Below, piece by piece: positions 12,161 to 64,000 of a stretch of DNA of 64,000 nucleotides. How positions within the stretch are numbered: the first letter of the stretch is position 1; every line of letters starts with the position of its first letter. The translations under genes and the position numbers were made by a program. The stretch covers positions 1,141,065-1,205,064 of the forward strand of contig RPFO01000448.1 in the NCBI GenBank assembly GCA_009746045.1, written 5' to 3'. The notes below the pieces were generated by a model. The model did no database searches. It had not been told where the DNA came from and worked only from the letters and a program-made list of their open reading frames with translations. This DNA comes from Mesostigma viride. Taxonomy: Eukaryota > Streptophyta > Mesostigmatophyceae > Mesostigmatales > Mesostigmataceae.

Positions 12161-12262
12161 CCCGGCCTCCCTCCTTCTCGCCGTGTATATAGGGTTGAAG
12201 GTTCCTTTACTCTGTATTGGCACCCACGTGACGCAGTCACGTGCTTATTAATTAATTAATTA
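12161..12262 (+). mobile_element. 102-bp LINE-tailed insert (SINE-like or truncated LINE)
   Basis: Flanked by the direct repeat ATGCACGACC (12,151-12,160 and 12,263-12,272). Its last 40 bp match the LINE-B 3' end: the hairpin CACGTGACGCAGTCACGTG plus a TTAATTAATT tail. The first 60 bp do not match LINE-B, so it is either another subfamily or a SINE that borrows the LINE tail. It interrupts the unclassified transposon ORF. A duplicated copy lies at 14,746-14,847. Confidence 0.75.
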
Positions 12263-12470
12263 ATGCACGACCTTGTTTGCCACATCCCCTCCCAGGTCCT
12301 CAAATTTGGGGACCTGCGCCTCTACGTACTCTCAGGAGGGGCTGGAACACATGCACCACATGCGCAAGGAGGACACCAAGCGCTGCACCAACCACCGTTC
12401 AAAGCTGGGCCGTGATGCCAAGGGCAAGGGTATGGGGGTGTCCATGTTGACGCAGGGCATGAAGGCTGAC

Positions 12471-14226: not shown

Positions 14227-15055
14227 GGGGTTGCACCCCCATTCTTCCCATCGAGCATGATGACCACCCTGATTGCATCCTCCACCTCCTGCTCAACGTC
14301 GTGTGCTCCCTGGTTGACCACACCCTCCTGGCAAACTTGCTGAAAAGCCAGGAGGAGGAAATGCTCAAAACGCTGCACGAGGAGTGTGGGGTGTACATCA
14401 AGGCTAAGCATGTGAAGGCTACCTCCAAGAGTGGCAATGCCAGAGCCCCTGAGAAGCCCACCATCATAGGCAGGGAGGCACTCTCTTTGCTAGAGAAATT
14501 CGATGTATGCGTGGACAAGTTGGGGGAGGATCTCCCACCTGGGAAGGGTGAGGCCATTTCACTTGCCTGGGAGTCTACGCGAAGCCTGTGGGTCACCCTC
14601 TCTGATCCGGATTTCAAGGATGATGGCCCCGGGGGAGCCAAGCGGGCACACAAGGCTAGTGAGGTGCAGGAGCAGGCAGAACTTTTATTCAGCGCCTTCT
14701 TGCACATTGCCACACCTGAGGCTGTCACAACGTACATGCACGACCCCCGGCCTCCCTCCTTCTCGCCGTGTATATAGGGTTGAAGGTTCCTTTACTCTGT
14801 ATTGGCACCCACGTGACGCAGTCACGTGCTTATTAATTCATTAATTAATGCACGACCTTGTTTGCCACATCCCCTCCCAGGTCCTCAAATTTGGGGACCT
14901 GCGCCTCTACGTACTCTCAGGAGGGGCTGGAACACATGCACCACATGCGCAAGGAGGACACCAAGCGCTGCACCAACCACCGTTCAAAGCTGGGCCGTGA
15001 TGCCAAGGGCAAGGGTATGGGGGTGTCCATGTTGACGCAGGGCATGAAGGCTGAC

Positions 15056-22725: not shown

Positions 22726-22752
22726 GTAAGACCTGCCTGATACGCCACTAAC

Positions 22753-30160: not shown

Positions 30161-32135
30161 ATGTTATACGCGGTGTTCTTATCTGCCCTTGTATGTGCAT
30201 CTGCGGGGCTGACAGATGAAGGAATACAGTGGGAGTACCATGCCCAATCGGAGTCAGCTTCGCATGGCCGGCACCTGCTCAGGATTACTGACTGGGAGCC
30301 GTATGTCACATCGGCAGACAGCCAAGGGGAAAAGGCTGTGAGCACGTGCACGCAGACATCAGAATGCCTGCCTGTGCAGAGCCTCACACTGCTGTACGTG
30401 GGCAGCCAGCAGAGTGTGCAGTTATCGGCAGAGGATTTCCCAGAGCTGGGCATGTACAGCTGGCCATTGAAGCAATGGTCCCAGGTGACCGTGTTGCCAA
30501 GGGGCCGGGAAAAAGTGGAGATCAAGGATGTGTCAATGGGCACAGTCGCAACCTTTTCCATGTCATGCGCCGAGCTCGGGATTGGTGTTGCCAATGGCAT
30601 GTTCCGGGTCGTGCGTGCAGAGAGGGGTGCCGCGGACGGGTCGGGTCGCTGCCGTGTCATGGAGATGGTTGCAGTGCCCAAGAAGGTTGTGGCTACAAAG
30701 GTGGGGGCCCGGGCAGTCGCAGTGTCATCACCGCCTCTTACCGGGTCTGCGTCGCCTTCGCCTGGACTGCTGGCGACCACATCAGCGGTGACAAGCACAG
30801 CTTTTTGTGGTGATGCGCCGCCATTGATATCGTGTGATGGCGTCGACTACCCAGAGTATGTGTTCAACAACGCGGGGGTTTCAACGCTGGGGGGCAGGCC
30901 TGCACCCGTGGTGAACGGCAACTACAGCGATTGGACGACAACATGCTCGGGCATTCCCAACACATGCGCGAACAAGACTCTTGGCCTCTACCCAGATGGC
31001 TGGGGGTTTATTATGTTTGAGTCTGGTCAGTTGGACCTGTATCGCACGAAGATTCAATTCGCAGATGTGTTCATGAAGTACGATTGCACGACAGGATACA
31101 TCTACTTCTTGGTTCTGAATCGACGTGTGTCGGGCTGCTCAGGCACAGACTACGACGCCGATTGCCGGTGAGCATATTTGTCAGGTTCAACTAGGCGGGG
31201 TGCCGTGTTGACGTAGTGGAATAAAGCAGCTCTTTGAAATGCACTTTGCAAGCTTTCAATTATCCGTCAGGAGGTTTTAGGGTTGCTGTCTTGCACGTAG
31301 GCAAATGTCAAGCAGAGTGCTGTGTTGTTTTGGCATGAATGGCATGAGTGATGCTGTGCGTTCCTATTGGATACGCCCACGAAGCATGATGGTGCACACC
31401 CTGGATGTCGCTGCACTAACGAGCTAATATCTCAACAACCAGAGTGTCTTTTCAGTCGCGGACCTGCTGTTAATGGTAGTTCTAGCGACTTGGGAGTATT
31501 ACAAATACCCCGTGGATTTTGTGCATGGAACACACGCCCTGATCAAGCATGCTGTTTCCGGCCCCACCGTCTTGGTCATCTAGTCGCTCTACACGTAAGC
31601 CAGCCATAATTTCAATGCACAACGATACACCTTTCCATCGCCATTCATCTTCATCATCCTGAACGACTCGAACACGCGGACAAGATAACGGCAGGCTCGA
31701 GCTACCATGGTCCGGATTCTCCCGATTTCTGGCCTGCGCTGGTTGTCTCCTTGATGGAATAGTTATATGCATTTAGCTGTGGTCCTTGATGCTTGATTGT
31801 GATAAATCATTGGGAGCATATGTCACAGTTAAAGACAACACGCCTTCCCTGTTATATAAGATTGCCATAACCATATCTTGTCTTGTCCGTTGCTGTCCTC
31901 TTGGCCATGCAGGTGGATGATGTCAACGAGTGGTGGGAAAGATGAGTGGCGAATTGTTGTGAACGACACACGAATGGTGGATGCCTCGTTCCCAACAAGT
32001 CAGTTCCGTTTTGTTCCTGCTGTAGGAAGGACGGGGAGCATCGGTTACGAGGCAGTCTTTGCTCTGGCACCAGGGGTGTACACCATATACGTCCATGCGC
32101 TGGTGGGCAACCTGAGGACTTCTTCTACGCCTAAG
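30161..32135 (+). CDS. module 1: signal peptide, unique N-terminal region, first A/B domain
   Basis: Exon A1 is 30,161-31,167, intron 31,168-31,912, exon B1 31,913-32,135. After the signal peptide come about 200 residues found nowhere else in the gene (SLTLLYVGSQQSVQLSAEDF ... FSMSCAELGIGVANGMFRVV), then a Ser/Thr/Pro spacer with no polyproline. The first A domain follows: CGDAPPLISCDGVDYPEYV, NGNYSDW, NTC, GFIMFESG, FADVFMKYDC and FLVLNRRV. B1 reads WMMSTSGGKDEWRIVVNDTR, FRFVPAVG, IGYEAVFALAPG and TSSTPK. In this first module the usual DG before DW is NG. The intron shares an exact 28-mer with an intron near 54,374. Confidence 0.8.
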
Positions 32136-35100
32136 GTGAGGGAGGGTACGCGTGATATATACTAAGGCTCTGTCATGGCTAGGCATGCCGCTGTCAGGTG
32201 ACGTTGTTGGTAGCCTGCAAACCCAAGGTTTGCATAGGAAGTCCGGTTTGGACAGTCTATGTTGTAATACCTCTTTATTGTCCCATTAAAAAAGGTATCT
32301 ATGATGGGATCTTTGACCTTGCATTACAGTCCATTCCACTTGTTATTTTGTTGAATTGATCAGGGCTCTGCATTTGGCTAGCCTGGAAGGCAAGCCGTGT
32401 TGGCCGAGTCCAACTAACGCACGGTGATGCATTGTCTTTTTTCTCAATCTCTCGATGCTTTTTGCAGTTCTGCCCAGCTTCAATTGCTATTCGTAGCTGC
32501 ACGTGCAAGTTCCCACCACCTCCAAATCCGCCACCACCATCACCTCCTCCGCCAAGCCCGCCACCATCACCCAACCCACCACCATCACCTCCTCCGCCAA
32601 GACCACCACCACCTAGCCCGCCCCCCAGGCCACCTCCTCCAAGGCCACCTCCAAGCCCCCCACCCAAACCTCCGCCTCCCAGCCCACCTCCTAGTCCGCC
32701 CCCTCCACCTAGCCCATCACCACCTCCGTCCCCACGCCCGCCTCCCAGCCCCCCTCCAAAGCCTCCACCTCCCAGCCCGCCTCCCAGCCCCCCCCCTCCT
32801 AGCCCGCCACCCCCTCCAAGCCCCCCTCCCCCTTCCCCCCCCCCTCCGAGCCCGCCTCCTAGCCCCCCTCCCCGTCCACCACCTCCCAGCCCTCCACCGC
32901 GGCCACCTCCTCCCAGTCCACCACCCAGCCCGCCTCCACCCCGTCCACCACCACCTAGCCCACCACCCAGCCCTCCACCTAGCCCGCCACCTCCAAGTCC
33001 ACCTCCTCCCCCAAGCCCGCCCCCCCCTCCCCCCTCCCAGTCCCCCTCCAAGGCCCCCCCCCTCCCCCCTCCCAGCCCCCCTCCCAGCCCGCCACCGAGT
33101 AAGAGTCCGTCACCTCCTCCTCCTCGTCCACCACCCAGCCCGCCTCCGCCCCGACCACCACCACCTAGCCCGCCACCCAGCCCCCGCCTCCCCGTCCGCC
33201 ACCTCCAAGTCCACCTCCAAGGCCACCCCCACCCTCGCCACCTCCTAGCCCGCCTCCGAGTCCACCCCCCTCACCCCTCCCCCTCCACCTAGCCCCCCGC
33301 CTAGCCCGCCCCCACCCCGTCCCCCACCTCCCAGCCCTCCTCCCCGTCCCCACCTCCCAGCCCACCGCCAAGTCCACCACCTAGCCCACCACCACCTAGC
33401 CCCCCACCTCCCAGCCCTCCCCCCGCCCGCCACCACCCAGCCCACCACCCAGCCCACCGCCTAGCCCGCCACCCAAACCGCCACCACCTAGCCCACCTCC
33501 AAGCCCACCTCCGCCAAGGCCACCGCCCAGCCCCCCACCAAACCCACCGCCACCCAGACCACCACCCAGCCCACCACCGCCCAGACCTCCTCCCCCAAGC
33601 CCACCGCCCAGACCTCCACCACCCAGCCCGCCTCCCAGCCCATCGCCACCTGTCGCTCCTGACTCCCCCAACACGCCGACGAGCCCAGCATGGCCAGGTC
33701 TACCCCCAGCCCCACCTGGGTGGATTGTTCCATGTGATGGAACCAGCCCGCCCATTCTGGGCTGCTCTAATGTGGAATACCCAGAATATGTCTACAATAA
33801 TGCGGCCGTGGCATTTGTCACTGGCAGCATGCCCGTTGTGGATGGCGTGTACACAGAGTGGAACACGGCATGCTCAGGCCTCGTAAATACGTGCTCAGAT
33901 CAGGGGGCGAATGGGTTGTATCCTCCGACATGGGCATATGTCATGTTTGAGTCTGGTATTATTGATTTGTACGAGACCAAGATCCAGTTCGCGGACGTGT
34001 TTGTCCAGTACAGCTGTGCAGCCTCGCGGGTGTACTTCCTCGTTCTGAACCGGCAGGTGGCAGGTTGTGGTGGAGGCTCATCATTTGACAACAATTGCAG
34101 GTGAGTCTTACAGGGCGTTGCTGCAAGTCAGCTGGAATGAATTTTCAATAGAATGCATGTCTCAGCAACCATTCCTGTAACTTCGTGGTCCCTAATTTTT
34201 TAACAGATATTATCTCTGTTCTTTTCTCTGTGCTCATGGCATTAACAGCCAAAAATCTTGCGTACTTTAGTGCTGGGCGCCTGGCCTGTCAGCTCCGTGC
34301 TACATTGCCTGCACATAATGCTGGCGGGCTTACGTCTGTTGATCTTGGGACGCCGTTTTGCCATGCTGCCACTGCCCAGGTGGTTGATGGAGTCAAGGAG
34401 CGCCAAAGATGAGTGGAGAATCGTGGTTAATGACACCAAGAGAGTAGACGCTGCAAGCACGGGGTTTGCATTCATCCCTGCGGTGGGCAAGTCTGGTTAT
34501 GCTATTGGGTATGAGGCCTCCTTCGACCTTGATCCAGGCGCGTGGGAGCTGTATGTCCACGCTCAAGTGAAAGGGGGCCGGACCTCTGCAACACCCAAGG
34601 TAGGTGAATTTTCTGAGCAAGGGTTTCTTGACTGTGTGATAATACTGCTAATGCTCAACCTCTTACCAAGAAGAGTAGCCACACTGCCCTGGAGTTGGAT
34701 GAGCAAGGTTGCGGGGCTTTGCTTAATCCACATGTGGGAAAGAGGGGTGTTGGTTCTTCTATGCTTTCTTGTTTGGTCAATAATAGCATTTTCTGCTTGG
34801 CAAGCAGCTTATTACAGCCTAGCTGGCACTGTCAAGTGGTTGCTGATTCAGCTCCAAGTGCTCCTCCACAGTAGAATATGTTTGCTGATGAAAGAAAGAC
34901 GAAGCTTCAACCTCAGATTCATTTCTTGCATCATTCTGCGCCGATGAGATGCAGGAGCCCTCGGATGTATTAGTCTACATTGTCTGCAAATTTTGCTCGT
35001 CAGCCAATCATGTTCAGGTATTGGATGTGTACTGACAACATCTTATGCCCCATGGCATCCTGTGGTTGAATCCGTGACCCTGCGGCATTTTTGTCACTGC

Positions 35101-38100
35101 AGAATTGCCCGGTGCCAATGGCCATCCAACCTTGTTCTGGTTGCACATACCCTCCCCCTCCCAGTCCACCACCAAGCCCGCCGCCACCTCGGCCGCCACC
35201 ACCTTCCCCGCCACCTAGACCTCCTCCGCCCAGCCCCCCTCCCAGCCCCCCCCCCCAAGCCCCCCTCCAAGCCCGCCCCCTCCTCCTAGCCCTCCTCCTC
35301 CGAGGCCCCCTCCAAGCCCTCCTCCCAGCCCACCACCCCGCCCACCACCTCCCAGCCCTCCGCCTCTTCAGTTTCCTGCACCACCAAGCCCACCACCGAG
35401 CCCGCCACCAAGCCCCCCTCCAAGGCCCCCACCCTCTCCTCCCCCGCCTCCTCCCAGTCCCCCCCCCCAGCCCACCACCTCCGAGCCCACCCCCTAGCCC
35501 ACCGCCGCCAAGCCCGCCACCACCTCCCAGCCCTCCACCTCCGCCCAGCACCTGCATTCAGCCAAGCCCCCCGATAATAAGCTGCGATGGGGTGGACTAC
35601 CCTGAATACGTCTACAATATCCAGCCGGCCGCCATTTTCTTTGGAGGATCCAACTCACCCCTGGTTGATGGCAACTACACGGAGTGGGGCATCACATGCT
35701 CGGGCATTCCTAACACATGCGCGACCATGACCAATGGCGTCTACCCTCCCTACTGGGCATTCATCATGTTTGAGAGCGGCATCATGGATCTTTATACTAC
35801 CAAGATTAAGTTTGCGGATGTGTTCTTCAAGTATGATTGCACCAACAACCGGCTTTTCGTCCTGGTGCTGAACCGCAGGGTCAACAAATGCGGCTTCACG
35901 TCTAGTTTTGACTCGGAATGCAGGTATGAGCTGCTCCTTTGTACCTCGTGCTGCTGATGGACACGCATTGTCTGATTGCCTGCGAATTTCTTTCAGTGGT
36001 CTTTCTGGCATTGGATTTCCAGGCTGCTAAGGGTTTTTTCTTTTTAGTTTGTGTAGATGGGATTGTGGCAATGTAAGATAATGGACCCTAATGATGGGAA
36101 GTTGCACTGAAGCAAGCGTACATGCTGCGCATCTGTTTCTTGTTCATGTATTGTAACAGGTGGCTGATGTCCAAGAGCTCTGCAGATGAGTTCAGGGTTA
36201 TTGTCGATGATAACAGAATGGTTGATGCTGGTTCAGGCCCTGGCAGTTTCCAGTTCATCCCTGCAGTCGGGAAATTGGGCTACTATGTCGGTTATGAGGC
36301 GGTCTTCCCTCTGGCGTCTGGGAACCACGGGTTGTACATTCACGCCAATGTGTTCGGTGGAAGAACTTCAGCTACTCCGAAGGTAAGTCATACTACGTGT
36401 ATCTGTTTTCTTTGTAAGTGGTATGCTCGACCATCCTAGCTATGCTAGCTTTCTGCATGTTTATGGCTGGCTATGCTAGCTTTCTGAGTGTCTATGGCTG
36501 GCTATGCTAGCTTTCTGCGCGTCTATGGCTGGCTATGCTAGCTTTCTGCGTGTTTATGGCTGGCTATGCTACCTCAGGTGTTCTTTCGTTGGTTCATTGC
36601 AGGCTTATTTTCTCATCCATTTTTTTTTCTCCTCTTGTTCGTTCTCCTCCGTGTTTTTTGTTGGTTCTTGCAGAATTGTCCGGTGCCCCTTGCCGTACCA
36701 TCCTGCACCGAGTGCACAAGCCCGCCACCGCCCAGCCCTCCCCCTCCAAGTCCCCCTCCCCCCAGTCCACCTCCCAGCCCTCCCCCCCCAAGCCCCCCCC
36801 CAAGCCCCCCCCCCCAAGCCTCCCCCCCTAGCCCTCCACCCACTGGCACCCCGAGACCCCCCCCCCCTCCCAGCCCGCCTCCCAGCCCCCCCCAGCCCGC
36901 CGCCTCCCCCTCCCAGCCCCCCACCCAGTCCGCCCCCACCTAGCCCACCGCCTAGTCCACCGCCTAGTCCACCTCCTCCGAGCCCGCCGCCACCCAGCCC
37001 ACCACCTGGCCTGGTGCCATGCGGGCAGAAGAGCCCTCCGTACCTCGTCTGTTCGAACGTTTCGTATGCTGCGTATCCCTACAACAATGTGGCGGCTCTC
37101 AAGGTTTCTGATACCCCGCCTGTTGTGGATGGGAGCTTTACTGAGTGGAACACGACCTGCTCAGGGGTGAACAACACCTGCGCCGTGAAGACGAATGGCG
37201 AGTATCCGTCGTCATGGGCATATGTAATGTTCGAGAGCGGACAGGTGGAACTTTTTGAGTACAAGATCCGCTTTGCTGATGTGTTCGTCAAGTACGACTG
37301 CGCGACATATCGGCTATATATCCTGGTGCTGAACCGCATCATGCCAGGGTGTTCAGGCAGCGGCTTCGACCTCAATTGCAGGTGGGTTGAGGGTGTGTCA
37401 GGGTATCTAGAAGCTCTGAATTCCCGTCTGGCACGTCTGGCAAGACCACAGAGGGGATCTGACCTGCGGCAATTCAGTGCCTGACAGTCAGTGCATTTGG
37501 AAAGCTGCCGGACTTCAAAACCTAGCAATACACCCTGCCTGTGGATGATTTATCATGGTGCATTGGAGCAGGCTGCTATCCTCTTAGCCGTGCTTGGTTG
37601 GTGTAGTTATGCATGGCTGCTGCAGATGTGGCATTATGCGATGTTTCAGCCCTGCTTCGTGGTGTTCAGTGGTCATCTAAAGCCATATGATGCCATGGTA
37701 GCAGGCACACAACATTTGCTGAGTAGAACTTGATGAGTAAAAGGTGTGTGCATTGTCTGGTGTCTGTAAACTGCAGGTGGCTCATGGCAAGCCAAGCCTC
37801 AAAGGATGAGTGGAGAGTGGTCGTCAACGACAAGAGAATGGTTGATGCTTCGTTTAATTCTTCAAGCTTCCAGTTTATTCCTGCCAACCAAACTGGCGGG
37901 AAGCAGTACTACATTGGATATGAAGCCACCTTTGCCATCGAGCCAGGTTTCTGGGAGCTTTACATCCATGCACAAATCTGGGGGTTGCGAACATCTTCTA
38001 CTGTAAAGGTAAGGCTCTCAAAATCGACTCGTTTTGCATGTTCATCTTTCTGATGTCTGTGCAGGTCACGATGGCTTGTGAGAGGTATTCATGTTTGGTG

Positions 38101-53100: not shown

Positions 53101-56100
53101 CCGCCACCTCCAACCAGCCCGTGCGTGCGTCCCAATGAGACCTACGTTTGCGCCAACGCGTCATACCCAGCGTACCTGTTCAACACATATGCCCCGGCCA
53201 TCCTACCACACAACACTGCCTCGCCGGTTATTGACGGCAGCTTGGGTGACTGGAACGTTGCCTGCTCTGACTTCATCAACACCTGCGCGACCAAGGCGGG
53301 CGGCCTGTACCCATCCCAGTGGGCGTTTGTGATGTTTGAGTCGGGCCAGATGGCAAACTATGGCACTGCGCCCAACTACGCGGACGTGTTCATGCAGTAC
53401 GACTGCTCCACTTCGCTTGTCTATGTGCTGGTGCTGAATCGGCGCGTGGCCAGCTGCGGTGGCGCTCCTGGATACGACGCTGAGTGCCGGTGAGCTTGCT
53501 TTAACATTTCTTTTAGGTTTCTTGACTAGAAAATAGGATTTTGGTGGTGTTCCGACTCCCACCTGTTGCATTCCTTTGTAAGCCTGGATGTAGCCCTTCC
53601 TGCCTGTGTCCTGCTGGTGTGCATCTCAGTTCTGCAATTGGCAATGGCTTTTGCAGCCCAGTGCCAGTGTCCGAGGCGTTTGTTCAGTGCTTTCAACATG
53701 ATTGGTAACCCAACATCTTTTACGCGTTCCAATAGCCCCAGAAAGGGAATCGACCCCTGAAATGGGGTTTCATTGAATGCATGGCTTGGAAGAGGATTAG
53801 CCGGCGTGCATGGCCAAGGCAGTACCGAGAAATGTACATCAGCACGATGTCTTGGGGCCATGCATCATGGGTATTCATGTAGGTATGCATGGACCCAATG
53901 ATGAGGAAGCTCACGAAAGGTTTTGAAAATATTTTGCACTTCCCAGAAGTTGGTAATAGCTGTGATGACTGACCATGCGTGGCCATTGCCTGGGTGGTGC
54001 CTACAGGTACCTGATGGAAAGCATGGCTACAGGCGCGGATTTTGGCGTTGAGGTGGATGGTGTGAAGATGGTGGACGGAACCAGCAGTTCCAGCGTTTTC
54101 CGTTTCATTCCAGCCCTTGGTGTGCCCGGGGCCTCAGTTGGTTTTGAAGCAGTCTTCTCCCTTGATCCAGGCGTGTATGGTCTTCAGTTCTACGCATTGG
54201 TGGAGGACATGAAGCTGTCGACGACCGCACAGGTGAGCTTCCCAGAGAGTAGTGCATGTGACTAATGTGCATGGTACTGATGTTGCTGCGCTGCAAGTAT
54301 GCCTGCTTGCCAGGGTGGCCTGTCTTTGGCCTGTTCTGCTGGTGGATGTAATGTTGGTAATTTATCAAATATGCTGGCCTGCGCTGGTTGTCTCCTTGAT
54401 GCTGTGGCGATGTATGCTGAGTGCAGTAGTCCTGCAACAGGACGTACCATGAGACTTGTTCCTCCTCCATTCCACCCTGTTTGGTAACTGTTGGTTCATG
54501 GTACTCATGTTTGCGTATATCCATGTATGTTTCTCTTCTTGTTACCCCACTTTTGTTTCTGCTTGTTCCTGCCACTAATATGTATGTGTATATGTTGTCT
54601 TTTTCTATGGCATACGCAGGACTGCGACGTGCCTCTCCACGTCATGTGCGGCCCGTGCACCCCGCCGCCGCCGCCTCCAGTGAACCCGTGCGAGCATCCC
54701 AACGAGACCTACGTTTGCGCCAACGCGTCGTACCCAGCCTACCTGTTCAACACGCATGCCCCGGCCATCCTGCCACACAACGCTGCCGCGCCGATCATTG
54801 ATGGCAGCGTGGGTGACTGGAACACGGCCTGCTCTGGTCTGGTCAACACCTGCACGACCAAGACAGGCGGCCTGTACCCGTCCCAGTGGGCGTTTGTGAT
54901 GTTTGAGACGGGCCAGATGGTCAACTTCGGCAGCGTGACCAACTATGCGGATGTGTTCATGCAGTATGACTGCTCGAGCTCGCTTCTGTATGTGCTGGTG
55001 CTGAACCGGCGTGTCGCGTACTGTTCCGGCGCCAACTACGACTTTGAATGCCGGTATGTGCATACGTGCCTGAAATTCTTAGGCCACTGGTTCTGGTGGT
55101 ACCCTGCTTCCGCCCACATGCCCACCCCCAATCCCCAGTGTTTCTTTCAGCTCATCCCCATGCCACCCCGCCCACAAGCTTGCCGATTAATTCCACCACT
55201 ACAAACCCCATGCCACTCCACCAGACTTCTTTTTGTACCCTTCTACATCTTCTGCTCTAACATTAGAATTTCTGGCTTGTTGGGAACATCCATATGTGGC
55301 TTGGAAACGTCTGCCCTGGATTTTGGGGTCGCTCTGCAGGTACCTGATGGAGAGCACGGCCACCGGCCTGGACTTCGGCGTCGAGGTGGACGGTGTCAAG
55401 GTTGTGGACGGGACCAACAGCTCCAGCGTGTTCCGCTTCATTCGAGCGGTCGGTGTCTCCGGGGCTTCTGTCGGCTTTGAGGCGGTCTTCTCCCTGGACC
55501 CAGGCCTCCATGGCTTCTACTTCTACGCCCAGGTGGAGAACATGACGAGCTCGGCCACAGCACAGGTGGGCCCCCTGTTTTGCGGCTGGACTGTGGTCAT
55601 GCCTTAGGCTCACCCCGTGTTTTTTTTCTGCATCCACTTCTGGTAAGCAAAATAGTTATTTGTAAGGCAGATACTCCCCTTTTACTGTACGTCCTGTTTG
55701 TAGTTCATACGTCCTGGTTGCATGTCGGACAAGACTTCGATTGTTCTTGCACAATTTTGTCAACACCATGTTCAGAAAGCGCTGTTTGGGCCAACAGCTC
55801 GTCATTAGCCTGTGAGTCTATGGTTACTATCTGCTGTCTAACGTGCGCACCAACATGCTTCTGTGTCTTTATTTTACATGCAGGATTGTGATGTGCCAGT
55901 AAACGTGATGTGCAGCACCTGCAGCCCACCGCCACCACGGCCGCCACCCCCATCGCCGCCTCCTCGACCGCCACCGAGCCCACCTCCTCGTCCTCCTCCC
56001 CCAAGCCCCCCACCCAGCCCCCCACCCCCTGGAACGCCGTGCATGCCACCTCCTCCACCCCCGCCCCCACCGGCGCCGCCGGCACCTCCCCTTCCTCCAC

Positions 56101-59100
56101 CACCACTGCCGCCTCCCCCTGCACCCCCTCCCCTTCCCCCTCCACCTCCATTGAACCCAGTGCCGCCGGCTCCGCCTGTGCCACCCTTGTCGCCGTGCTA
56201 CATGGACTACCCTCCTGCACCAACTCGCCCACCCAGCCCACCCCCCCGTCACCCAAGCCGCCGCCACCCCGACCGCCACCACCTAGCCCACCCCCTTACC
56301 CCCCGTTCCCTCCTTCGACGGGCCCATGCCAGCATCCCAACGAGACATATGTCTGTGGCAATGCATCCTACCCAGCATACGTGTTCAACACGCATGCCCC
56401 GGCCATCCTGCCATTCAGGGCTCCCACGCCGGTCATTGACGGCATCTTTGGTGACTGGAACACGGCCTGCTCCGGCCTGACCAATACTTGCTCGACCAAG
56501 GCAGGCGGCGTGTACCCGTCCCAGTGGGCATTTGTGATGTTTGAGACGGGCCAGATGGTGAACTACGGCACCGCGCCCAACTACGCGGATGTGTTCATGC
56601 AGTACGACTGCTACAGTTCGCTTCTGTATGTGCTGGTGCTGAACCGGCGGGTGGCTGACTGTTCTGGTGACAGCTATGACGCTCAGTGCCGGTGAGTTTG
56701 CTCAGCACTTTTGAGTTTTGTCTCATTGACTGTCAAGCCTCCTTCAGTCTCCTTTCGGGTTCTGCCCGTCCGCTCCTTGCTGTATTGGCTGGGGTTTACT
56801 CATTAATGGACTTCAACCTTGCTGTTTAACACCAGTGTATCTGGGCAGTCAACGATTCTATACAGATTCGTTTTTTCCTATATGTAAGAATTAGCAAATC
56901 GTGTCATGTATCAGGCAGTGCATGGAAGAAGATTGCCTGTTGACAATACTTCACAGCTGGTGTAAGTGGATGTTGGGCGGAGGGTAGAGCCGGCTTGCTC
57001 TCCATTGCACGTTTTTTTCACCTGGCTTTGTCAGCGTGGTCTCTGCTTAACAACTGGTTGGTGGCCAATTCCTGGGGTTTGCCTGCAGGCACCTGATGGA
57101 AGGCACGGCCAGTGGCGTGGACTTTGGCGTTGAGGTGGACGGTGTCAAGGCGGTGGACGGGACGGACAGCTCCAGCGTGTTTCGGTTCATTCCAGCCGTT
57201 GGTATCAATGGCTACAGCGTCGGCTTTGAGGCCGTTTTCTCCATGGAGCCTGGTTTGCACGGTCTCTACTTCTACTCAAAAGTGGAGAACAACAAGAATT
57301 CGGCCACAGCTCAGGTGAGCGGCCAGTTGCGTTATGCTGCATGACCAGATGGACGACCGCCCTGGTGGTTGCCCACCAGGGCTGTTGGCACGGTCTGCAT
57401 GTTTGCACAATTAGTTGTGGGCACCTCATCAACCATGCCTTTAAGCAGCCTTATGGAGTTGTAGTGGTTCCAAGAGCGGAGCCTCATGCCTGCGTGGTGT
57501 TGCGTGGATAAACCCAAGTATCTTTGTTTAAGGCTGGTGTGGGGCATGGTAAGGAAGCAACCCTCACAGATGTAGAAATCTACGCCTACAGAACTTGTGT
57601 TTCAGGCAGACTACACCTGCCAGATGGACATGTGGCCTTACCCTGTCAAATCTGTAAGTGCTAAATGCTCTCGCATTTCATGGTTTACACTCCTACCGGA
57701 CAGCGTGCTCGTAGTGGCTAGCACACACATGGTGCACTATCTTCATGTGGTACTTGCAAACGGAAGTGTCCTGCCTCCTGCTTGATCTGTCAGTGTATTT
57801 TGCCGGCACTGATGTGCATGCATGTTACCTTGTGGGCACGAAGGTGTCAGTAATGCTAGCTGGCCTTCTGGCCGGGCTGCAGAATATGGCCTGCTAGTCC
57901 TTCCTGCTGCAGGTCGTGCATGGGGACCATACCTTAGTCACTTCCTTTGCCTCCATTTCTTGCTGCTGAGTTTTGTTTGCGGCTCATACCCATTTGTACG
58001 CATGCACCTGTACCTGGTGACCATGGAATTTGCAGGACTGTGACGTGCCAGTCAACGTTATGTGCTGGTCATGTAGTCCACCTCCACCAAGGCCTCCGCC
58101 TCCTCCACCGACCATCCCGTGTGTGCATCCCAACGAGACCTACGTTTGCGCCAACGCGTCGTACCCAGCCTACCTGTTCAACACGTACGCCCCGGCCATC
58201 CTGCCATACAACGCTGCTGCGCCGGTCATTGATGGCAGCTTGGGTGACTGGAACATGGCCTGCTCTGATTTCATCAACACCTGCGCGACCAAGACGGGGG
58301 GCCTGTACCCGTCCCAGTGGGCGTTTGTGATGTTTGAGTCGGGCCAGATGGCTAACTTTGGCACGGCAGCCAACTACGCGGACGTGTTCATGCAGTACGA
58401 CTGCTCCACTTCGCTTGTCTATGTGCTGGTGCTGAACCGGCGTGTGGCCAGCTGCAGTGGCGCCGATGAATTTGATGCTGAGTGCCGGTGAGTTCGCCTC
58501 ATACATTGCTGCCTCCACCCATCCATCATGGAATATGTGCTACATGATCTCCCAACGGAGGCATGTTATAATTTAATTTAATTTTTTAAATTGCTGCCTC
58601 CAATTGTTCTATTACCTTTCCCAGCCTTCCCAGCTGCTGGCAACAGCCCCTTGAAAACTGTAGCCTGCACTAACCGTTCAGCTAGACTGGAGGAGGAAAA
58701 CAACTCTTTTTGTATTTTGCTGTCACAGCTGGATGTATAAAAGATGAGTGTTGCAGATTGTAGCAACTAATCATTGCAGGATTTCCATGGACTGACAGGA
58801 TGATGCTAGGATTGAAGTGCCTAACAATGAGCAAATTCAACTGCGCCTCCAGGCAGTATGGGAATCATTTCTTAAAAGATTCGTACTGCTGGTGCTGCCC
58901 ATTAGGATGCCAACACCCAGGTTTGCGCCTGCATATTCCTTCGGGGTACTTGCGTGGCCAATGGCTGGGGTGTGGTTACAGGTACCTGATGGAGAGCTTG
59001 GCCAGCGGGGCGGACTTTGGCATTGAGGTGGACGGCGTCAAGGTCGTGGATGGGACCAGCGGTCCCAGCCAGTTCCGTTTCATTCCTGCCGTTGGAGCCC

Positions 59101-62100
59101 CTGGGTTCAGTGTTGGCTTTGAGGCGGTGTTCGCGCTGGATCCAGGTGTGCACGGGCTGTACTTCTACGCACAAGTGGAGAACATGAAGCCTTCGGCGAC
59201 TGCTCAGGTGGGCAGTTATTAAATGTATTGCTCCTGCGTCCCCGGGGTGTCATGCGTATGCTTGCCCACCAAACTCAAGCGGCTGACCACATTATCTTAT
59301 AACCTATGACCACATTCCTATCTTTGGCCATTCCTCCAGACAGGGTATGGGCACTTTTTCCTTAGTTTTGTGTAGGTATTGGATAGACGTGGCTGTCATG
59401 CTGAATGCATGTGTAAGTTTTTTGTGCCCGCAGAAATCCCGACGGCTTGGGAATTCTTCCCACCTGATGGTGATGGCATTTCCAATCCAGGATATCTGCT
59501 TCTGATACACCCTACCGCCATGTATCCACATCTTGTGCAGGAGTGCGATCTGCCTCTCCACGTGATGTGCGGCCCATGCACCCCGCCGCCGCCGCCGCCG
59601 CCGCTGCCGCCGCCACCGCCACCTCCAACCAGCCTATGCGAGCGTCCCAACGAGACCTACGTTTGCGCCAACGCGTCGTACCCGGCCTACCTGTTCAACA
59701 CGCATGCCCCGGCCATCCTGCCATACAATGCCGCTGCGCCGGTCGTTGATGGCAGCTTGGGTGACTGGAACGTTGCCTGCTCTGATTTCATCAACACCTG
59801 CGCGATCAAGACAGGCGGACTTTACCCGTCCCAGTGGGCGTTTGTGATGTTTGAGACGGGCCAGATGGCTAACTTTGGCACGGCAGCCAACTACGCGGAC
59901 GTGTTCATGCAGTACGACTGCTCGAGCTCGCTTCTGTATGTGCTGGTGCTGAACCGGCGCGTGCACAACTGTGGTGGAGCCCCCGGATATGACGCCGACT
60001 GCCGGTGAGTGTGGCCAACCTTTCATCCACACCGAATCGGGCTCGCTCCTTGCCAGGGCCCTCACGATCTTGCCGAGATTGTTTTCTTTCTCCGCCACCC
60101 TGCGACTGTTCCGGGGGGGGTGATGCCCACGCTTTGTAGCGAAATCGCATGTTAGGACAACGAGATGGCTTCGGGGCTAACGGGTCAAAGATGTTGCGTA
60201 GCGATTGTGATGTAGGGAGGATCGCCTGGAAGAGAGCTCATCGGTAATGAAACAAGGGCAGCTTCTTTTTCCTCAGTCGGCCCTATCCATTGCTCCTGTG
60301 GCCTTGGCAGTGTGTCAGCGTAACCATTTGTCTTGTGTGGCCAATGCCCGGCGTGTGCCGTGCAGGTACTTGATGGAGAGCTCGGGCTCTGGCGAGTACT
60401 TTGGCGTCGAGGTGGACGGTGTCAAGGTTGTGGACGGGACCAACAGCTCCAGCGTGTTCCGCTTCATCCCCGCCGTTGGTGTCCCCGGTGCCAGCGTTGG
60501 TTTCGAGGCGGTCTTCCCTGTGGAGCCGGGCATTGGTGGTGTGTTCGTGTACGCCGAGGTGGAGGACTGGAAGCTGTCAGCGACGGCGCAGGTGAGCCCA
60601 CCGCATTGTCTACTGCATTGGATGTTGGCCTTGTCCTGTACGAATACACGGTGCATCTTCTGGATCCCCACCTTTTTCCCTGCGCGTTGCTGGCGTGGGT
60701 GCTCACCTGTGCATCTGGCCCTGCTTCTACACACCCTTCTCCAACCCTTGCCCAACTTGTGCAGGAGTGCGATCTGCCTCTCCACGTGATGTGCGGCCCA
60801 TGCACCCCGCCGCCGCCGCCGCCTCCAACCAGCCCGTGCGTGCGTCCCAACGAGACCTACGTTTGCGCCAACGCGTCGTACCCGGCCTACCTGTTCAACA
60901 CGTACGCCCCGGCCATCCTGCCATACTACGCTGCTGCGCCGGTCATTGATGGCAGCTTGGGTGACTGGAACACGGCCTGCTCTGATTTCGTGAACACCTG
61001 CGCGACCAAGACGGGGGGCCTGTACCCGTCCCAGTGGGCGTTTGTGATGTTTGAGACGGGCCAGATGACAAACTTTGGCACGGCAGCCAACTACGCGGAC
61101 GTGTTCATGCAGTACGACTGCTCGAGCTCGCTTCTGTATGTGCTGGTGCTGAACCGGCGCGTGCACAACTGTGGTGGAGCCCCCGGATATGACGCCGACT
61201 GCCGGTGAGTGTGGCCAACCTTTCATCCACACCGAATCGGGCTCGCTCCTTGCCAGGGCCCTCACGATCTTGCCGAGATTGTTTTCTTTCTCCGCCACCC
61301 TGCGACTGTTCCGGGGGGGGTGATGCCCACGCCTTGTAGCGAAATCGCATGTTAGGACAACGAGATGGCTTCGGGGCTAACGGGTCAAAGATGTTGCGTA
61401 GCGATTGTGATGTAGGGAGGATCGCCTGGAAGAGAGCTCATCGGTAATGAAACAAGGGCAGCTTCTTTTTCCTCAGTCGGCCCTATCCATTGCTCCTGTG
61501 GCCTTGGCAGTGTGTCAGCGTAACCATTTGTCTTGTGTGGCCAATGCCCGGCGTGTGCCGTGCAGGTACTTGATGGAGAGCACGGCCACCGGCCTGGACT
61601 TTGGCATCGAGGTGGACGGTGTCAAGGTTGTTGACGGGACCAACAGCTCCAGCGTGTTCCGCTTCATCCCTGCCGTTGGTGTCCCCGGTGCCAGCGTTGG
61701 TTTCGAGGCGGTCTTCCCTGTGGAGCCGGGCATTGGTGGTGTGTTCGTGTACGCCGAGGTGGAGGACTGGAAGCTGTCAGCGACGGCGCAGGTGAGCCCA
61801 CCGCATTGTCTTCTGCATTGGATGTTGGCCTTGTCAAGCCATGCAAGTAAAGACGCATCTTTTGGATGGCTTTGGCCGTCGTGTCCCTTCCTAGGTCATA
61901 TTTTCTGGTGCGGTCGGATGGGTGTGCTGCTTGATACTGCGCCCGTTGTATTTGTGTAGGATTGCAGTTATCAAGGTTTTTGAAGGTGCGTTGGTTCAAT
62001 ACCATTATTTTTCTTTTGACTCGTGTTGCTGACTGGTGCACCTTTATCGTTGTAGCTTCGCAGCCGTGTGTGGCACTGCTAACGTGTGGTGAAGACATGG

Positions 62101-64000
62101 CGCTTTTCCTAGACGCTGCATGTTTGCCACGTCTTCTCGGAGAATGTGGTGGTCTCCCGCTTGTCCAACCAAAGCACAGGTTTCCCTGGCCACACCGTCC
62201 CCACATTTTTGCCTGCTCGTTGCTGGCGCGGGTGCTCACCTGTGCATCTGGCCCTGCTTCTGCACACCCTTCTCCAACCCTTTCCCAACTTGTGCAGGAG
62301 TGCGACCTGCCTCTCCACATCATGTGCGGCCCGTGCACCCCGCCGCCGCCGCCGCCGCCGCCACCGCCACCTCCAACCACCCCATGCGTGCGTCCCAACG
62401 AGACCTACGTTTGCGCCAACGCGTCGTACCCGGCCTACCTGTTCAACACGTACGCCCCGGCCATCCTGCCATACAACGCTGCTGCGCCGGTCGTTGATGG
62501 CAGCTTGGGTGACTGGAACATGGCCTGCTCTAATTTCATCAACACCTGCGCGATCAAGACAGGCGGACTTTACCCGTCCCAGTGGGCGTTTGTGATGTTT
62601 GAGACGGGCCAGATGGCTAACTTTGGCACGGCAGCCAACTACGCGGACGTGTTCATGCAGTACGACTGCTCGAGCTCGCTTCTGTATGTGCTGGTGCTTA
62701 ACCGGCGTGTGCCGTACTGTTCCAGCGCCAACTACGACTTTGAATGCCGGTGAGTATTGCCATTGGTTTCATTCATTTGCCGTGTAAAAGGGAGGGCGGA
62801 GGGGGGAGGGGGGAGGGGAGGGGGGAGGGGGAGGGGGGAGGGGGAGGGGGAGGGGGGAGGGGGGAGGGGGGAGGGGGAGGGGGGAGGGGGGAGGGGGAGG
62901 GGGAGGGGGTAAATCCTGTTGTTGTACTCTCTTTTTGTATTATATCAGCGCGATCCTTTCCTTTCGGTTTGGTATCCTGGGGTGCATTCCGTCAGTAAGT
63001 GTGATTCTGAGGCCCTTGCCACCTGCTGGCTCCTTGCGAGGGTTTACTGTGTTTTCACACTAGGGGTTAATTCCGGGGAGTTGTTTTGTAAACTTGACGC
63101 GATTTTCCCCGACATTCTGGCGCCAGTAGCAATCGACGCGATCCAACGCTCAAAAGGGTCGATGCGGAAATTTCCGGCAATTGTTCCGTGGCAGCTGGAC
63201 ACGTTCACACTTGGTGCAATTCTGCACTGAAAAATTTCCAGACAATGTAGTACGGACATGGTGCGGTACCGGGCCAATTGGTAGACGTTCGGTGCGGAAG
63301 CCTGGTGGAAGTTGGGCAATGAATGTGCCGCTTGTAAACAACGCGGCGCGGGGCTGGTCAGGCGCGGCGCGTGGGTCAGCCAGTCACCACCTGCTGGTAT
63401 GTACTGAACAGGCAAGAAAGACACGGAAGCACTAGATCTTAAGTATCAAGGTGGGAAGAGAAACTGAACTATACTGAACGCCCTGTGGACCCCGCCAGAC
63501 GAGTGCGCAAAAGTCGGGCAATTCAAGGTGGAAGTTGGCAGAAGAGCTCCGAGGCCATTTCCACCGATATCCACGGAATTCCGGATTTTCAGCCAATTCT
63601 CTTTTCTCAGTGGCCATATACGCGGGATATGTGGTTCGATAGGTCGATGTACTGGTTGGCTTGGAAGTTGCAAGCGTGAACACAAAACAGGGATATTTAA
63701 TGTTAACTTAACCCGAATTCCCGGCAATTCACCCCCTAGTGTAAAAACACCGTTATTCTAGAAAAGTAACTTGGTTACTTTTGCATGGCAGGGACATTTT
63801 GTTAGAGTACTCATTGGCAAACATAGAAACTGTCATACTGCACTGTTTTGCCTTGCGTAGTACCTCGTTGGCCTTTCTGCTGCATTATCATAACTCCCAA
63901 CAACCAGCAATGGCCATGCAGGTACCTGATGGAGAGCTCAGCCACTGGCGAGTACTTTGGCGTCGAGGTGGACGGTGTCAAGGTTGTGGACGGGACCAAC
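30161..64000 (+). CDS. giant modular secreted Pro-rich matrix glycoprotein gene, 18+ two-exon modules (3' end outside window)
   Basis: A single inferred gene of at least 36 coding exons (A1,B1 to A18,B18), with about 16.8 kb of coding sequence visible. I start at the ATG at 30,161 because MLYAVFLSALVCASAGL is a good signal peptide (cleavage probably after ASA); an in-frame ATG at 30,077 would bury it. Every A exon begins in phase 0 and ends in phase 2, and every B exon ends in phase 0. No later module has a signal peptide and no terminal stop follows any B exon, so I read one transcription unit. The likely product is a secreted or wall protein: the SPPPP linkers should be hydroxylated and arabinosylated, and sequons (NET, NAS, NSS) recur in each later module. 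Function is inferred from composition; there is no known orthologue that I can name. Confidence 0.75.
32468..34599 (+). CDS. module 2: very long polyproline linker plus A/B domain
   Basis: Exon A2 is 32,468-34,100 and exon B2 34,380-34,599. A2 opens with FCPASIAIRSCTCKF, then about 400 residues of SPPP, SPPPP and RPPPP repeats, then CDGTSPPILGCSNVEYPEYV and the A domain with VVDGVYTEWNTACSG and FADVFVQYSC. Within the linker the frame is lost at four C-runs (near 33,185, 33,280, 33,348 and 33,425). Adding one C at each restores the frame exactly, with the expected phase-2 exon end, so these are probably homopolymer undercounts. B2 carries DEWRIVVNDTK and IGYEASFDLDPGAWELYVHA. Confidence 0.75.
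35103..36382 (+). CDS. module 3: polyproline linker plus A/B domain
   Basis: Exon A3 is 35,103-35,923 and exon B3 36,160-36,382. It begins NCPVPMAIQPCSGC, followed by a linker of about 130 residues. The frame slips at a nine-C run near 35,250 and returns near 35,465, so the exon keeps its overall phase. The A domain reads CDGVDYPEYVYN, LVDGNYTEWGITCSG and FADVFFKYDC; B3 reads WLMSKSSADEFRVIVDDNRM and YVGYEAVFPLASG. Modules 1-6 share the DEWRVVVND / LYIHAQ type of B exon. Confidence 0.75.
36440..36571. repeat. 31-bp tandem repeat in intron before module 4
   Basis: A little over four copies of a unit beginning CTATGCTAGCTTTCTG and ending TATGGCTGG, 31 bp each, with few substitutions. It lies just downstream of exon B3 and creates short spurious open frames. 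Confidence 0.85.
36674..38008 (+). CDS. module 4: polyproline linker plus A/B domain
   Basis: Exon A4 is 36,674-37,381 and exon B4 37,777-38,008, the longest B exon (77 residues). Opening NCPVPLAVPSCTEC, a linker of about 100 residues, then CGQKSPPYLVCSNVSYAAYPYNN, VVDGSFTEWNTTCSG and FADVFVKYDC. One C-run near 36,890 carries a net shift (one C too many or two too few). B4 reads DEWRVVVNDKRMVDASF, FQFIPANQ, IGYEATFAIEPG. The preceding intron contains four 31-bp tandem repeats. Confidence 0.75.
38299..39739 (+). CDS. module 5: short Pro/Ala linker, intact frame, GC-AG intron
   Basis: Exon A5 is 38,299-38,849 and exon B5 39,520-39,739. Opening FCPVPLAIESCTYC, with a short loose linker (PPAPSAPRLPPPPPASPP). 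The A domain is intact: CYGVEYPEYVYNH, GIDGDYTEWNTACSG, FADVFFQYDC and VLVLNRRV. The only donor that keeps the phase-2 ending is GC (AG|GCAAGT at 38,850), a GC-AG intron. B5 reads DEFRVIANETRVVDAG, FQFIPARG, VGYEAMFYLDPG. The intron is filled with a pentanucleotide satellite. Confidence 0.8.
38964..39290. repeat. pentanucleotide microsatellite (ACATG/ACACG/ATTAC) in intron of module 5
   Basis: A run of ACATG units, then more than 30 ACACG units, then ATTACACCAC decamers and ATTAC pentamers. The blocks are successive variants of the same 5-bp period. Its 5-bp period leaves all three frames open on each strand, giving long but meaningless repetitive ORFs on both. Confidence 0.95.
40297..41328 (+). 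CDS. module 6: polyproline linker plus A/B domain
   Basis: Exon A6 is 40,297-40,904 and exon B6 41,109-41,328. Opening NCPVPLALDCLGICG, a linker of about 65 residues with one FVGPQPPHP interruption, then CWQGSPRNLSCDGTTYPEYIYN, FIDGSADDWDTSCSG, FADVFFKYDC and ILVLNRVN. The frame is open throughout. B6 reads WLMDDRASTDEWRVVVNDNRM and VGYEAVFDLEPGAWELYIHA. It is the last clear member of the first module type. Confidence 0.8.
41856..43040 (+). CDS. module 7: transitional module between the two types
   Basis: Exon A7 is 41,856-42,556 and exon B7 42,812-43,040. Opening NCPVPLVVDSCTEC (type I), but with the linker sub-cassette PPVPPLSPCYMDYPPAP that recurs in modules 8, 9 and 14. The A domain has a type-II-like end: NDTYVCGATSYPTYPLN, VVDGSYGDWSTSCSG, SYADVFLTYDC. 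B7 starts like type I (WLLENG) and continues like type II (DGSNSSSVFRFIPANG, IGFEAVIPMSPG, MYFYAKVE). The whole frame is open. Confidence 0.8.
44248..46825 (+). CDS. module 8: double-length polyproline linker plus type II A/B domain
   Basis: Exon A8 is 44,248-45,821 and exon B8 46,600-46,825. Opening ECDMPLYISCVTC, then a linker of about 380 residues containing two copies of a Cys sub-cassette (a G-x-P-C-M-PPP start at about 44,501 and 45,077, a PLSPCYMD end at about 44,664 and 45,223). The frame is lost and regained at long C-runs (for example near 45,108 and 45,262), with no net phase change. The A domain reads SETYFCGNASYPAYLF, IDGSLGDWNTACSG and NYADVFMQYDC; B8 has EFGVKVDGIKVVDGTNSTSVF. 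Confidence 0.75.
47848..49329 (+). CDS. module 9: long linker, type II A/B domain, frameshift shared with module 14
   Basis: Exon A9 is 47,848-48,751 and exon B9 49,104-49,329. Opening DCDVPLYVTCMAC, a linker with one Cys sub-cassette (GTPCMPPP ... PLSPCYMDYP), then HPNETYVCGNASYPAYVF, IDGIFGDWNTACSG and NYADVFMQYDC. Near 48,302, eleven bases lie between AG and GTC, which puts the A domain one base out of frame. The same 11-base spacing occurs in module 14. B9 begins with CGA (A at 49,104) and reads DFGVEVDGVKVVDGTDSSSVF. Confidence 0.75.
50062..51006 (+). CDS. module 10: short linker, type II A/B domain
   Basis: Exon A10 is 50,062-50,513 and exon B10 50,781-51,006. Opening DCDVPINAMCWSC with the short linker SPPPPRPPPPPPT, then HPNETYVCANASYPAYLF, VVDGSLGDWNTACSD and NYADVFMQYDC. 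B10 is unusual in starting MVMESLASGADFG and in having GGPSQFRF in place of SSSVFRF. Both traits link it to module 15. The donor after B10 is CAA|GTGAGC. Confidence 0.8.
51296..52348 (+). CDS. module 11: short linker, type II A/B domain
   Basis: Exon A11 is 51,296-51,735 and exon B11 52,126-52,348. Opening DCDVPLHVMCGPC, linker TPPPPPPPT, then RPNETYVCANASYPAYLF, IDGSLGDWNAACSG, PTNSCSTKTGG (one of the few departures from the NTC motif) and NYADVFMQYDC. B11 is one residue shorter than the usual type II exon and has MFQIIPAVG. The frame is fully open. Confidence 0.8.
53053..54232 (+). CDS. module 12: short linker, type II A/B domain
   Basis: Exon A12 is 53,053-53,489 and exon B12 54,007-54,232. 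Opening DCDVPVNVMCGPC, linker IPPPPPPT, then RPNETYVCANASYPAYLF, IDGSLGDWNVACSD, MANYGTAPNYADVFMQYDC and VLVLNRRV. B12 has DFGVEVDGVKMVDGTSSSSVF and SVGFEAVFSLDPGVYGLQFYA. The 704-bp intron upstream is the least conserved of this block. Confidence 0.8.
54620..55565 (+). CDS. module 13: short linker, type II A/B domain
   Basis: Exon A13 is 54,620-55,053 and exon B13 55,340-55,565. Opening DCDVPLHVMCGPC, linker TPPPPPPV, then HPNETYVCANASYPAYLF, IIDGSVGDWNTACSG and SVTNYADVFMQYDC, ending CSGANYDFECR. That ending is matched only by module 18. B13 has FRFIRAVG where other modules have FRFIPAVG. Confidence 0.8.
55884..57314 (+). CDS. module 14: long linker, type II A/B domain, paralogue of module 9
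   Basis: Exon A14 is 55,884-56,691 and exon B14 57,089-57,314. Opening DCDVPVNVMCSTC. From about 56,041 to the end of the exon it is nearly identical to module 9, including the GTPCMPPP / PLSPCYMDYP sub-cassette and the one-base frameshift before the A domain (near 56,243), although here the run is interrupted (CCC A CCCCCCC). B14 begins HLMEGTASGVDFG, and its flanking intron also resembles that of module 9. Confidence 0.75.
58036..59207 (+). CDS. module 15: short linker, type II A/B domain, paralogue of module 10
   Basis: Exon A15 is 58,036-58,487 and exon B15 58,982-59,207. Opening DCDVPVNVMCWSC and linker SPPPPRPPPPPPT as in module 10, then HPNETYVCANASYPAYLF, IDGSLGDWNMACSD, NYADVFMQYDC. 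B15 shares SLASGADFG and GPSQFRF with B10. The internal intron carries a 72-bp LINE insertion. Confidence 0.8.
58518..58589 (+). mobile_element. 72-bp 5'-truncated LINE-A 3' end in intron of module 15
   Basis: Flanked by the exact 13-bp direct repeat ATTGCTGCCTCCA (58,505-58,517 and 58,590-58,602). The insert (CCCATCCATCATGG ... GAGGCATGTTATAATTTAA tail) matches the reverse complement of LINE-A's 3' end at about 8931-9003. It shows the LINE-A family has been mobile since this intron formed. Confidence 0.85.
59541..60591 (+). CDS. module 16: type II A/B domain, first copy of a recent duplication
   Basis: Exon A16 is 59,541-60,004 and exon B16 60,366-60,591. Opening ECDLPLHVMCGPC, linker PPPPPPPLPPPPPPP, then RPNETYVCANASYPAYLF, VVDGSLGDWNVACSD, NFGTAANYADVFMQYDC, ending CGGAPGYDADCR. 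B16 reads YLMESSGSGEYFGVEVDG and the divergent end FPVEPGIGGVFVYAEVEDWK. The internal intron differs from that of module 17 by only about one base. Confidence 0.8.
60765..61791 (+). CDS. module 17: type II A/B domain, second copy of the duplication
   Basis: Exon A17 is 60,765-61,204 and exon B17 61,566-61,791. Opening ECDLPLHVMCGPC, shorter linker TPPPPPPPT, then RPNETYVCANASYPAYLF, YYAAAPVIDGSLGDWNTACSD and NYADVFMQYDC, ending CGGAPGYDADCR like module 16. B17 starts STATGLDFGIEVDG, like B13, then switches to the module 16 ending (PVEPGIGGVFVYAEVEDWK), which suggests gene conversion between modules. Confidence 0.8.
62298..64000 (+). CDS. module 18: type II A domain and start of B exon, cut by the window edge
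   Basis: Exon A18 is 62,298-62,749; exon B18 starts at 63,922 and runs off the window. Opening ECDLPLHIMCGPC with a linker of about 11 prolines, RPNETYVCANASYPAYLF, VVDGSLGDWNMACSN and NYADVFMQYDC, ending CSSANYDFECR as in module 13. B18 begins YLMESSATGEYFGVEVDG. The 1172-bp intron holds a polypurine tract and a MITE. The gene continues beyond 64,000. Confidence 0.8.
62789..62908. repeat. GGGGGA polypurine tract in the last intron
   Basis: About 120 bp of almost pure purine built of GGGGGA and GGGGGGA units on the + strand. It can form G-quadruplexes on the transcribed RNA and triplex DNA, and could slow polymerase. Its exact length is unreliable in an assembly. Confidence 0.95.
63047..63752. 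mobile_element. 706-bp MITE, Harbinger-like, in the last intron
   Basis: Imperfect terminal inverted repeats CTGTGTTTTCACACTAGGGG and (reverse complement of the right end) CGGTGTTTTTACACTAGGGG, flanked by TTA on both sides (63,044-63,046 and 63,753-63,755). A 3-bp TTA/TWA duplication is the PIF/Harbinger signature. No transposase is encoded. Confidence 0.6.

Follow-up and report, generated by a model that had tools for sequence, protein, structure and literature searches.

A tandem array of at least 18 exon pairs in Mesostigma viride that may encode one giant secreted proline-rich protein

The stretch of Mesostigma viride DNA analysed here (64,000 nucleotides of contig RPFO01000448.1, called the window below) carries a long series of alternating exons, and the locus raises the question of whether these belong to one giant gene for a secreted protein or to several genes, and of what kind such a protein would be. 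A six-frame HMM search of the window revealed a strict alternation of 18 A and 18 B exons on the + strand at 30161-64000, and no A or B exon in positions 1-30160 or on the - strand. The exons are as follows.

30161..31167, +, exon A1: signal-peptide-like start, N-terminal domain, Ser/Pro stretch, first two thirds of domain 1
31913..32135, +, exon B1
32468..34100, +, exon A2: domain 1 tail, long Pro linker with frame switches, domain 2 core
34380..34599, +, exon B2
35103..35923, +, exon A3: out-of-frame patch in linker
36160..36382, +, exon B3
36674..37381, +, exon A4: frame switch in linker
37777..38008, +, exon B4
38299..38849, +, exon A5, followed by a GC donor
39520..39739, +, exon B5
40297..40904, +, exon A6
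41109..41328, +, exon B6
41856..42556, +, exon A7
42812..43040, +, exon B7
44248..45821, +, exon A8: long Pro linker with frame switches
46600..46825, +, exon B8
47848..48751, +, exon A9: frame switch in linker
49104..49329, +, exon B9
50062..50513, +, exon A10
50781..51006, +, exon B10
51296..51735, +, exon A11
52126..52348, +, exon B11
53053..53489, +, exon A12
54007..54232, +, exon B12
54620..55053, +, exon A13
55340..55565, +, exon B13
55884..56691, +, exon A14: frame switch in linker
57089..57314, +, exon B14
58036..58487, +, exon A15
58982..59207, +, exon B15
59541..60004, +, exon A16
60366..60591, +, exon B16
60765..61204, +, exon A17
61566..61791, +, exon B17
62298..62749, +, exon A18
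63922..64000, +, exon B18, cut by the window end (full B profile, E 4.6e-9)

Throughout the array, A exons are followed by phase-2 introns and B exons by phase-0 introns. Of the donors, 18 follow A exons and 17 follow B exons; all 35 are GT except the one at A5, which is GC, and all 35 acceptors are AG. The complete B exons all have lengths of 1 mod 3 (17/17), and 14 of the 18 A exons have lengths of 2 mod 3. Circularity of the search was tested with held-out profiles, trained on one subset of the modules and run on the remaining ones. With the profile of modules 1-6, all 12 later A exons were recovered at E 3.5e-40 or better, and 11 of the 12 later B exons at E 4e-18 or better. The one exception was the truncated B18, which the full B profile, built without it, did find. 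The profile of the later modules recovered all six early A and all six early B exons. It is clear from the agreement of HMM search, held-out profiles and splice sites that the 18 consecutive exon pairs of constant phase described on one strand by the initial annotation are present. Its figure of more than 5,500 codons also stands, the spliced length being 16,789 nt or about 5,596 codons with the frame still open at the window end. Two repeats seen by eye lie in introns: short tandem arrays (ACATG, then CACGA-type units) between A5 and B5 (38970-39290), and a long G-rich array after A18 (62790-62910). Rfam and tRNA scans of the window gave no match.

The start at 30161, MLYAVFLSALVCASAG, is signal-peptide-like as judged by hydropathy only, and to that extent agrees with the signal peptide proposed earlier; the product would probably be secreted. 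It is followed by an N-terminal domain present once in the window, at the start of the array (E 7.7e-65; next best 1.8). No Pfam family was found in the first exons of the window gene and its paralog. DUF7467 (PF24269) was considered for the N-terminal domain but found no support, since Pfam scans returned 0 families and hhalign gave a probability of 0.4% against a consensus recognised by PF24269; a whole-genome search for DUF7467 yielded none, but its controls gave no match either.

Beyond the window the contig continues with 5,000 N, 2,722 readable bases in which neither A nor B is matched, and another 19,260 N. The 18 modules are therefore a minimum. When the genome (439,911,974 bases in 2,243 contigs) was searched with exon A11, 20 places were found, 18 of them in the window and two on contig C1. 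The latter belong to a two-module paralog on the - strand (13905815-13901200) that consists of a signal-peptide-like start, an N-domain, and A, B, A and B exons. Its N-domain is 42% identical to that of the window gene (E 4e-40), both intron phases are kept, and its first exon has a Ser-Ser-Pro linker instead of poly-Pro. The paralog would be 947 residues long if it ended after the second B exon; a tail exon, expected from the domain layout, was not found by motif scan, and a 2,500-base N run lies within about 2 kb.

The region upstream of the gene contains mobile elements. In a long open LINE-type retrotransposon (21064-27156, +), the first ORF has no Pfam match and the next, of 1,469 residues, encodes an endonuclease and reverse transcriptase. 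Three more reverse transcriptase ORFs lie at 9528-17481, those at 12.8-14.3 and 15.4-17.5 kb being similar copies, and a Copia-like remnant with a Pol beta-barrel domain at 5868-6638 (-). Just upstream of the gene, at 28770-29310, a stretch of some 200-250 bases was seen by eye to occur twice in near-identical form.

Each module had been described as carrying two conserved domains. A and B instead encode a single domain interrupted by an intron. It takes in A and B and is completed by approximately the first 15 codons of the following A exon, and this tail is kept at the head of all 17 internal A exons. With this composition exactly ten cysteines were counted in each of the 18 units tested, 17 from the window and one from the paralog, module 18 and the second paralog module being outside the count. 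The proline rod therefore lies within the A exon, preceded by the tail of one unit and followed by the core of the next.

The same boundaries emerged from the comparison with bacterial proteins. The query used for them was a bacterial domain pattern. A scan of bacterial and archaeal contigs detected one real protein, in a Chloroflexi MAG, with 54% identity over 127 residues, and matches were found in 3 of 301 Chloroflexota genomes, that MAG included.

1384-2046, L015 (in JABMQN010000027.1): secreted-looking Chloroflexota protein with an unnamed domain and a hydrophobic C-terminal end
1453-2154, L023: secreted-looking Chloroflexota protein with an unnamed domain and a hydrophobic C-terminal end
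1162-2052, -, L024: secreted-looking Chloroflexota protein with an unnamed domain and a hydrophobic C-terminal end

An HMM of the algal modules, built without bacterial sequences, scored 29.6 bits for L015 and 29.1 bits for L023 versus 6.1 for the best of 3,000 shuffles. L024 (7.2 bits) was inseparable from background; with the extended profile one other frame of 400 reached 10.2. In the reverse direction, the bacterial profile scored all 19 algal modules at 17.0-33.4 bits versus 9.0 for the best of 1,900 shuffles. Adding the head of the next A exon (its first 15 codons) raised the scores from 29.6 to 35.4 bits for L015 and from 29.1 to 32.0 bits for L023, and hhalign aligned 146 columns running through A, B and the next-A head with a probability of 98.1%. 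The gain in score, together with the exact ten cysteines obtained with the next-A head, identifies the folded unit as A core, B and next-A head. Judged from these profile comparisons, the algal domain is distantly related to a domain of secreted Chloroflexota proteins. Common to both are, in collinear order, VVDG..W, (L/V)Y.RYDC, LYVLVL, G(Y/F)EA, a C-terminal strand and a closing cysteine. The Chloroflexota proteins have one copy of the domain, few cysteines, no proline rods and no introns, and they end in a possible sorting signal (matches below cut-off), whereas the algal domain has an additional cysteine loop and a cysteine-bearing N-terminal extension.

The earlier statement that the protein could not be matched to a named family thus holds for names, but the domain does have a distant relative in Chloroflexota. 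No Pfam family exceeded the cut-off in the six modules scanned of the 20 known, no NCBIfam family was found in the two modules scanned, and the domain of L015 received no name in Pfam or NCBIfam scans. Profile searches of PDB sequences gave no relative of the modules and none of the bacterial domain. A search of 5.8 billion proteins, covering only candidates of 0.55-1.75 times the query length and therefore able to miss long eukaryotic models, returned no relative either, nor did viral contigs or, with the algal profile, GTDB contigs; in plasmids and phages no relative was seen, a single match at E 0.7 being taken as chance.

The unit is probably a beta-rich domain of about 200 residues held by ten cysteines, presumably in five disulfides. 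AlphaFold2 models of two modules (intron read through; 30 and 28 rows), predicted with low confidence (mean pLDDT 49 and 58, pTM 0.48 and 0.55), place three strands in exon A and six in exon B, and structural alignments of these models extend across both parts. In structural comparisons of the low-confidence models no solved fold stands out, and the viral structure library gave no match below E 0.2. For an Ig, NEAT, CBM21 or CrdA fold the comparison scores were too low to use. A CBM9 or DOMON-like fold would be a further candidate.

The linkers between the units vary from 5 to about 400 residues. Eight of the 17 are short (5-14 residues) and nearly pure proline, and the nine longer ones, six of them read along the frame path of a script, contain 58-77% proline and 1-21 SPPPP each; the linkers of A2-A18 sum to about 1,577 codons. 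Two cysteine-containing motifs recur within the rods and add cysteines to them, PLSPCYMD in A7, A8, A9 and A14 and GTPCMPPPP in A8, A9 and A14. In a study of Chlamydomonas, a polyproline-II helix of 429 residues measures ~133 nm, and the prolines in such helices are proposed to be hydroxylated and glycosylated (PMC11015965). By that measure the longest rod would reach ~125 nm and all linkers together ~490 nm, and by analogy the prolines of these linkers may likewise be hydroxylated and glycosylated.

The array had also been described as free of internal stops, which is not the case. The incoming frame meets a stop in A2, A4, A8, A9 and A14, always within the proline linker, and the linker of A3 contains an out-of-frame patch, so that the frame changes inside the linker in six of the 18 A exons. 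These breaks, the matching place at which A9 and A14 (modules 95% identical) are broken, and the N runs beyond the window could be explained by a decaying or misassembled locus that is non-functional through its frameshifted linkers. This is quite unlikely, as the domain parts are open in all 18 A cores and 17 full B exons with good splice sites, the linkers of the paralog are in frame, and 11 of the 12 switches placed by the frame-path script across the six linkers fall in C-rich sequence, where sequencing errors are expected. Furthermore, the domain parts are under purifying selection: among the 45 of 136 module pairs with dS between 0.05 and 1.5 (Nei-Gojobori script), the median dN/dS was 0.25 and the maximum 0.40, and even the youngest pairs gave 0.32-0.40. 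Because the domain parts are clean and under selection, we read the frame breaks, without proof, as sequencing or assembly errors; the match between A9 and A14 also fits an inherited real change.

The modules differ widely in how alike they are. Modules 1-6 share 54-63% identity among themselves and 40-49% with the remaining modules, and modules 9-17 are 73-95% alike, the closest pairs being 9/14 (95%), 16/17 (93%) and 10/15 (89%). In a tree of 17 window and two paralog modules, module 1 of the paralog groups with module 1 of the window (support 87/86); module 18 was left out of both the tree and the dN/dS analysis because B18 is cut. The array probably grew by tandem duplication of the A+B exon pair, which is symmetric (phase 0 to phase 0), and the short gene from which it started would have resembled the surviving two-module paralog.

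Whether the modules are joined in one transcript can be approached from the domain itself. Since the ten-cysteine domain is complete only when a B exon is joined to the head of the A exon that follows, the modules are tied to one another, and one gene is favoured because splitting the array at any module border would cut a domain. If instead the locus were a row of adjacent secreted genes of one family, each would have a short first exon in an inter-module intron, and candidates for such exons do exist: five signal-peptide-like ATG frames with a possible phase-0 donor lie in 4 of the 17 B-to-A introns, at 0.56 per kb versus 0 in A-to-B introns and 0.15 in shuffles, and two of these four introns are the longest of the 17 (1207 and 1022 bp). 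A gene ending at a B exon would, however, be missing the end of its domain and three of ten cysteines, one beginning at an internal A exon would open with an orphan tail, and the window contains a single N-terminal domain, which makes the division into several genes distinctly improbable. The claim that no internal start exists consequently has to be softened for these frames, but agrees with the single N-terminal domain. We infer from the exon sequences that the whole array would be transcribed as one unit.

We consider it rather probable that the locus encodes one giant secreted hydroxyproline-rich glycoprotein of the cell surface or matrix, in which disulfide-bonded beads are set on rigid glycosylated rods. 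The single gene would supply a signal peptide, a family-specific N-terminal domain and at least 18 copies of the domain joined by proline-rich linkers. Once hydroxylated and glycosylated, the SPn linkers would become stiff polyproline-II rods by which spacing and length are set, the domains may act as sticky beads binding neighbours or wall polymers, and a single molecule could reach several hundred nanometres across the wall, matrix or surface coat. Of the giant filamentous matrix or surface glycoprotein originally envisaged, the very large and probably secreted repeat protein is borne out, but its place in a filamentous matrix stays an inference. The bead-and-rod layout would also suit an adhesin or recognition receptor for mating, bacteria or a polysaccharide, with the domains as putative binding heads rather than parts of a structural matrix. 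The relationship of the domain to secreted bacterial proteins with a possible C-terminal sorting signal points the same way, as does the divergence of modules 1-6 beside the likeness of modules 9-17. Such a role is nevertheless somewhat unlikely, since structural comparisons matched no lectin or carbohydrate-binding fold with confidence. The structural glycoprotein, which we prefer, might even represent a new class of giant extracellular filaments in eukaryotes, a suggestion made tentatively and short of probable. Along its more than 5,500 residues, 18 or more disulfide domains with counterparts in secreted proteins of bacteria would alternate with glycosylated polyproline rods whose lengths differ greatly (~2 to 125 nm at 0.31 nm/residue), forming a molecular ruler of at least half a micrometre built by symmetric exon-pair duplication.

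Among known surface proteins, the pherophorins of volvocine algae combine globular domains with a variable hydroxyproline-rich rod (PMC9818292). The protein encoded here has globular domains with a proline-rich rod between them, a likeness of layout only: a typical pherophorin consists of two globular domains and a single rod, and the array has 18 domains; the pherophorin domain (DUF3707) was not found by Pfam in six of the 20 modules or in the first exons of the window gene and paralog. MST1 and MST3 of the Chlamydomonas mastigoneme are, according to PMC11015965, extracellular hydroxyproline-rich glycoproteins with glycosylated polyproline-II helices, and MST1 resembles the present protein also in its tandem beta-rich domains. 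MST3 has a transmembrane domain, and MST1 is made of nine Ig-like domains, a Cys-rich domain and one C-terminal rod (PMC11015965); the window model does not have that order of parts, its rods and domains alternating instead. Profile searches of PDB sequences, a set that may not contain MST1, gave no match. No account of this gene was found in the literature searched, to which that statement is confined. Extensins and other SPn wall proteins share the SPPPP/SPPP repeats. Extensins are not known to have repeated globular domains. The SPn-rich linkers are a trait of hydroxyproline-rich glycoproteins, and the SPPPP-rich rods fit the known algal members (PMC11015965). To these algal wall proteins the present locus would add a giant whose folded domain, unnamed in the libraries scanned, is tied to secreted proteins of bacteria. 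Growth of a giant structural protein by exon-pair duplication would be directly traceable here, through the two-module paralog and the gradation in similarity among the 18 modules, and the rod lengths would provide a testable spacing rule for the algal coat.
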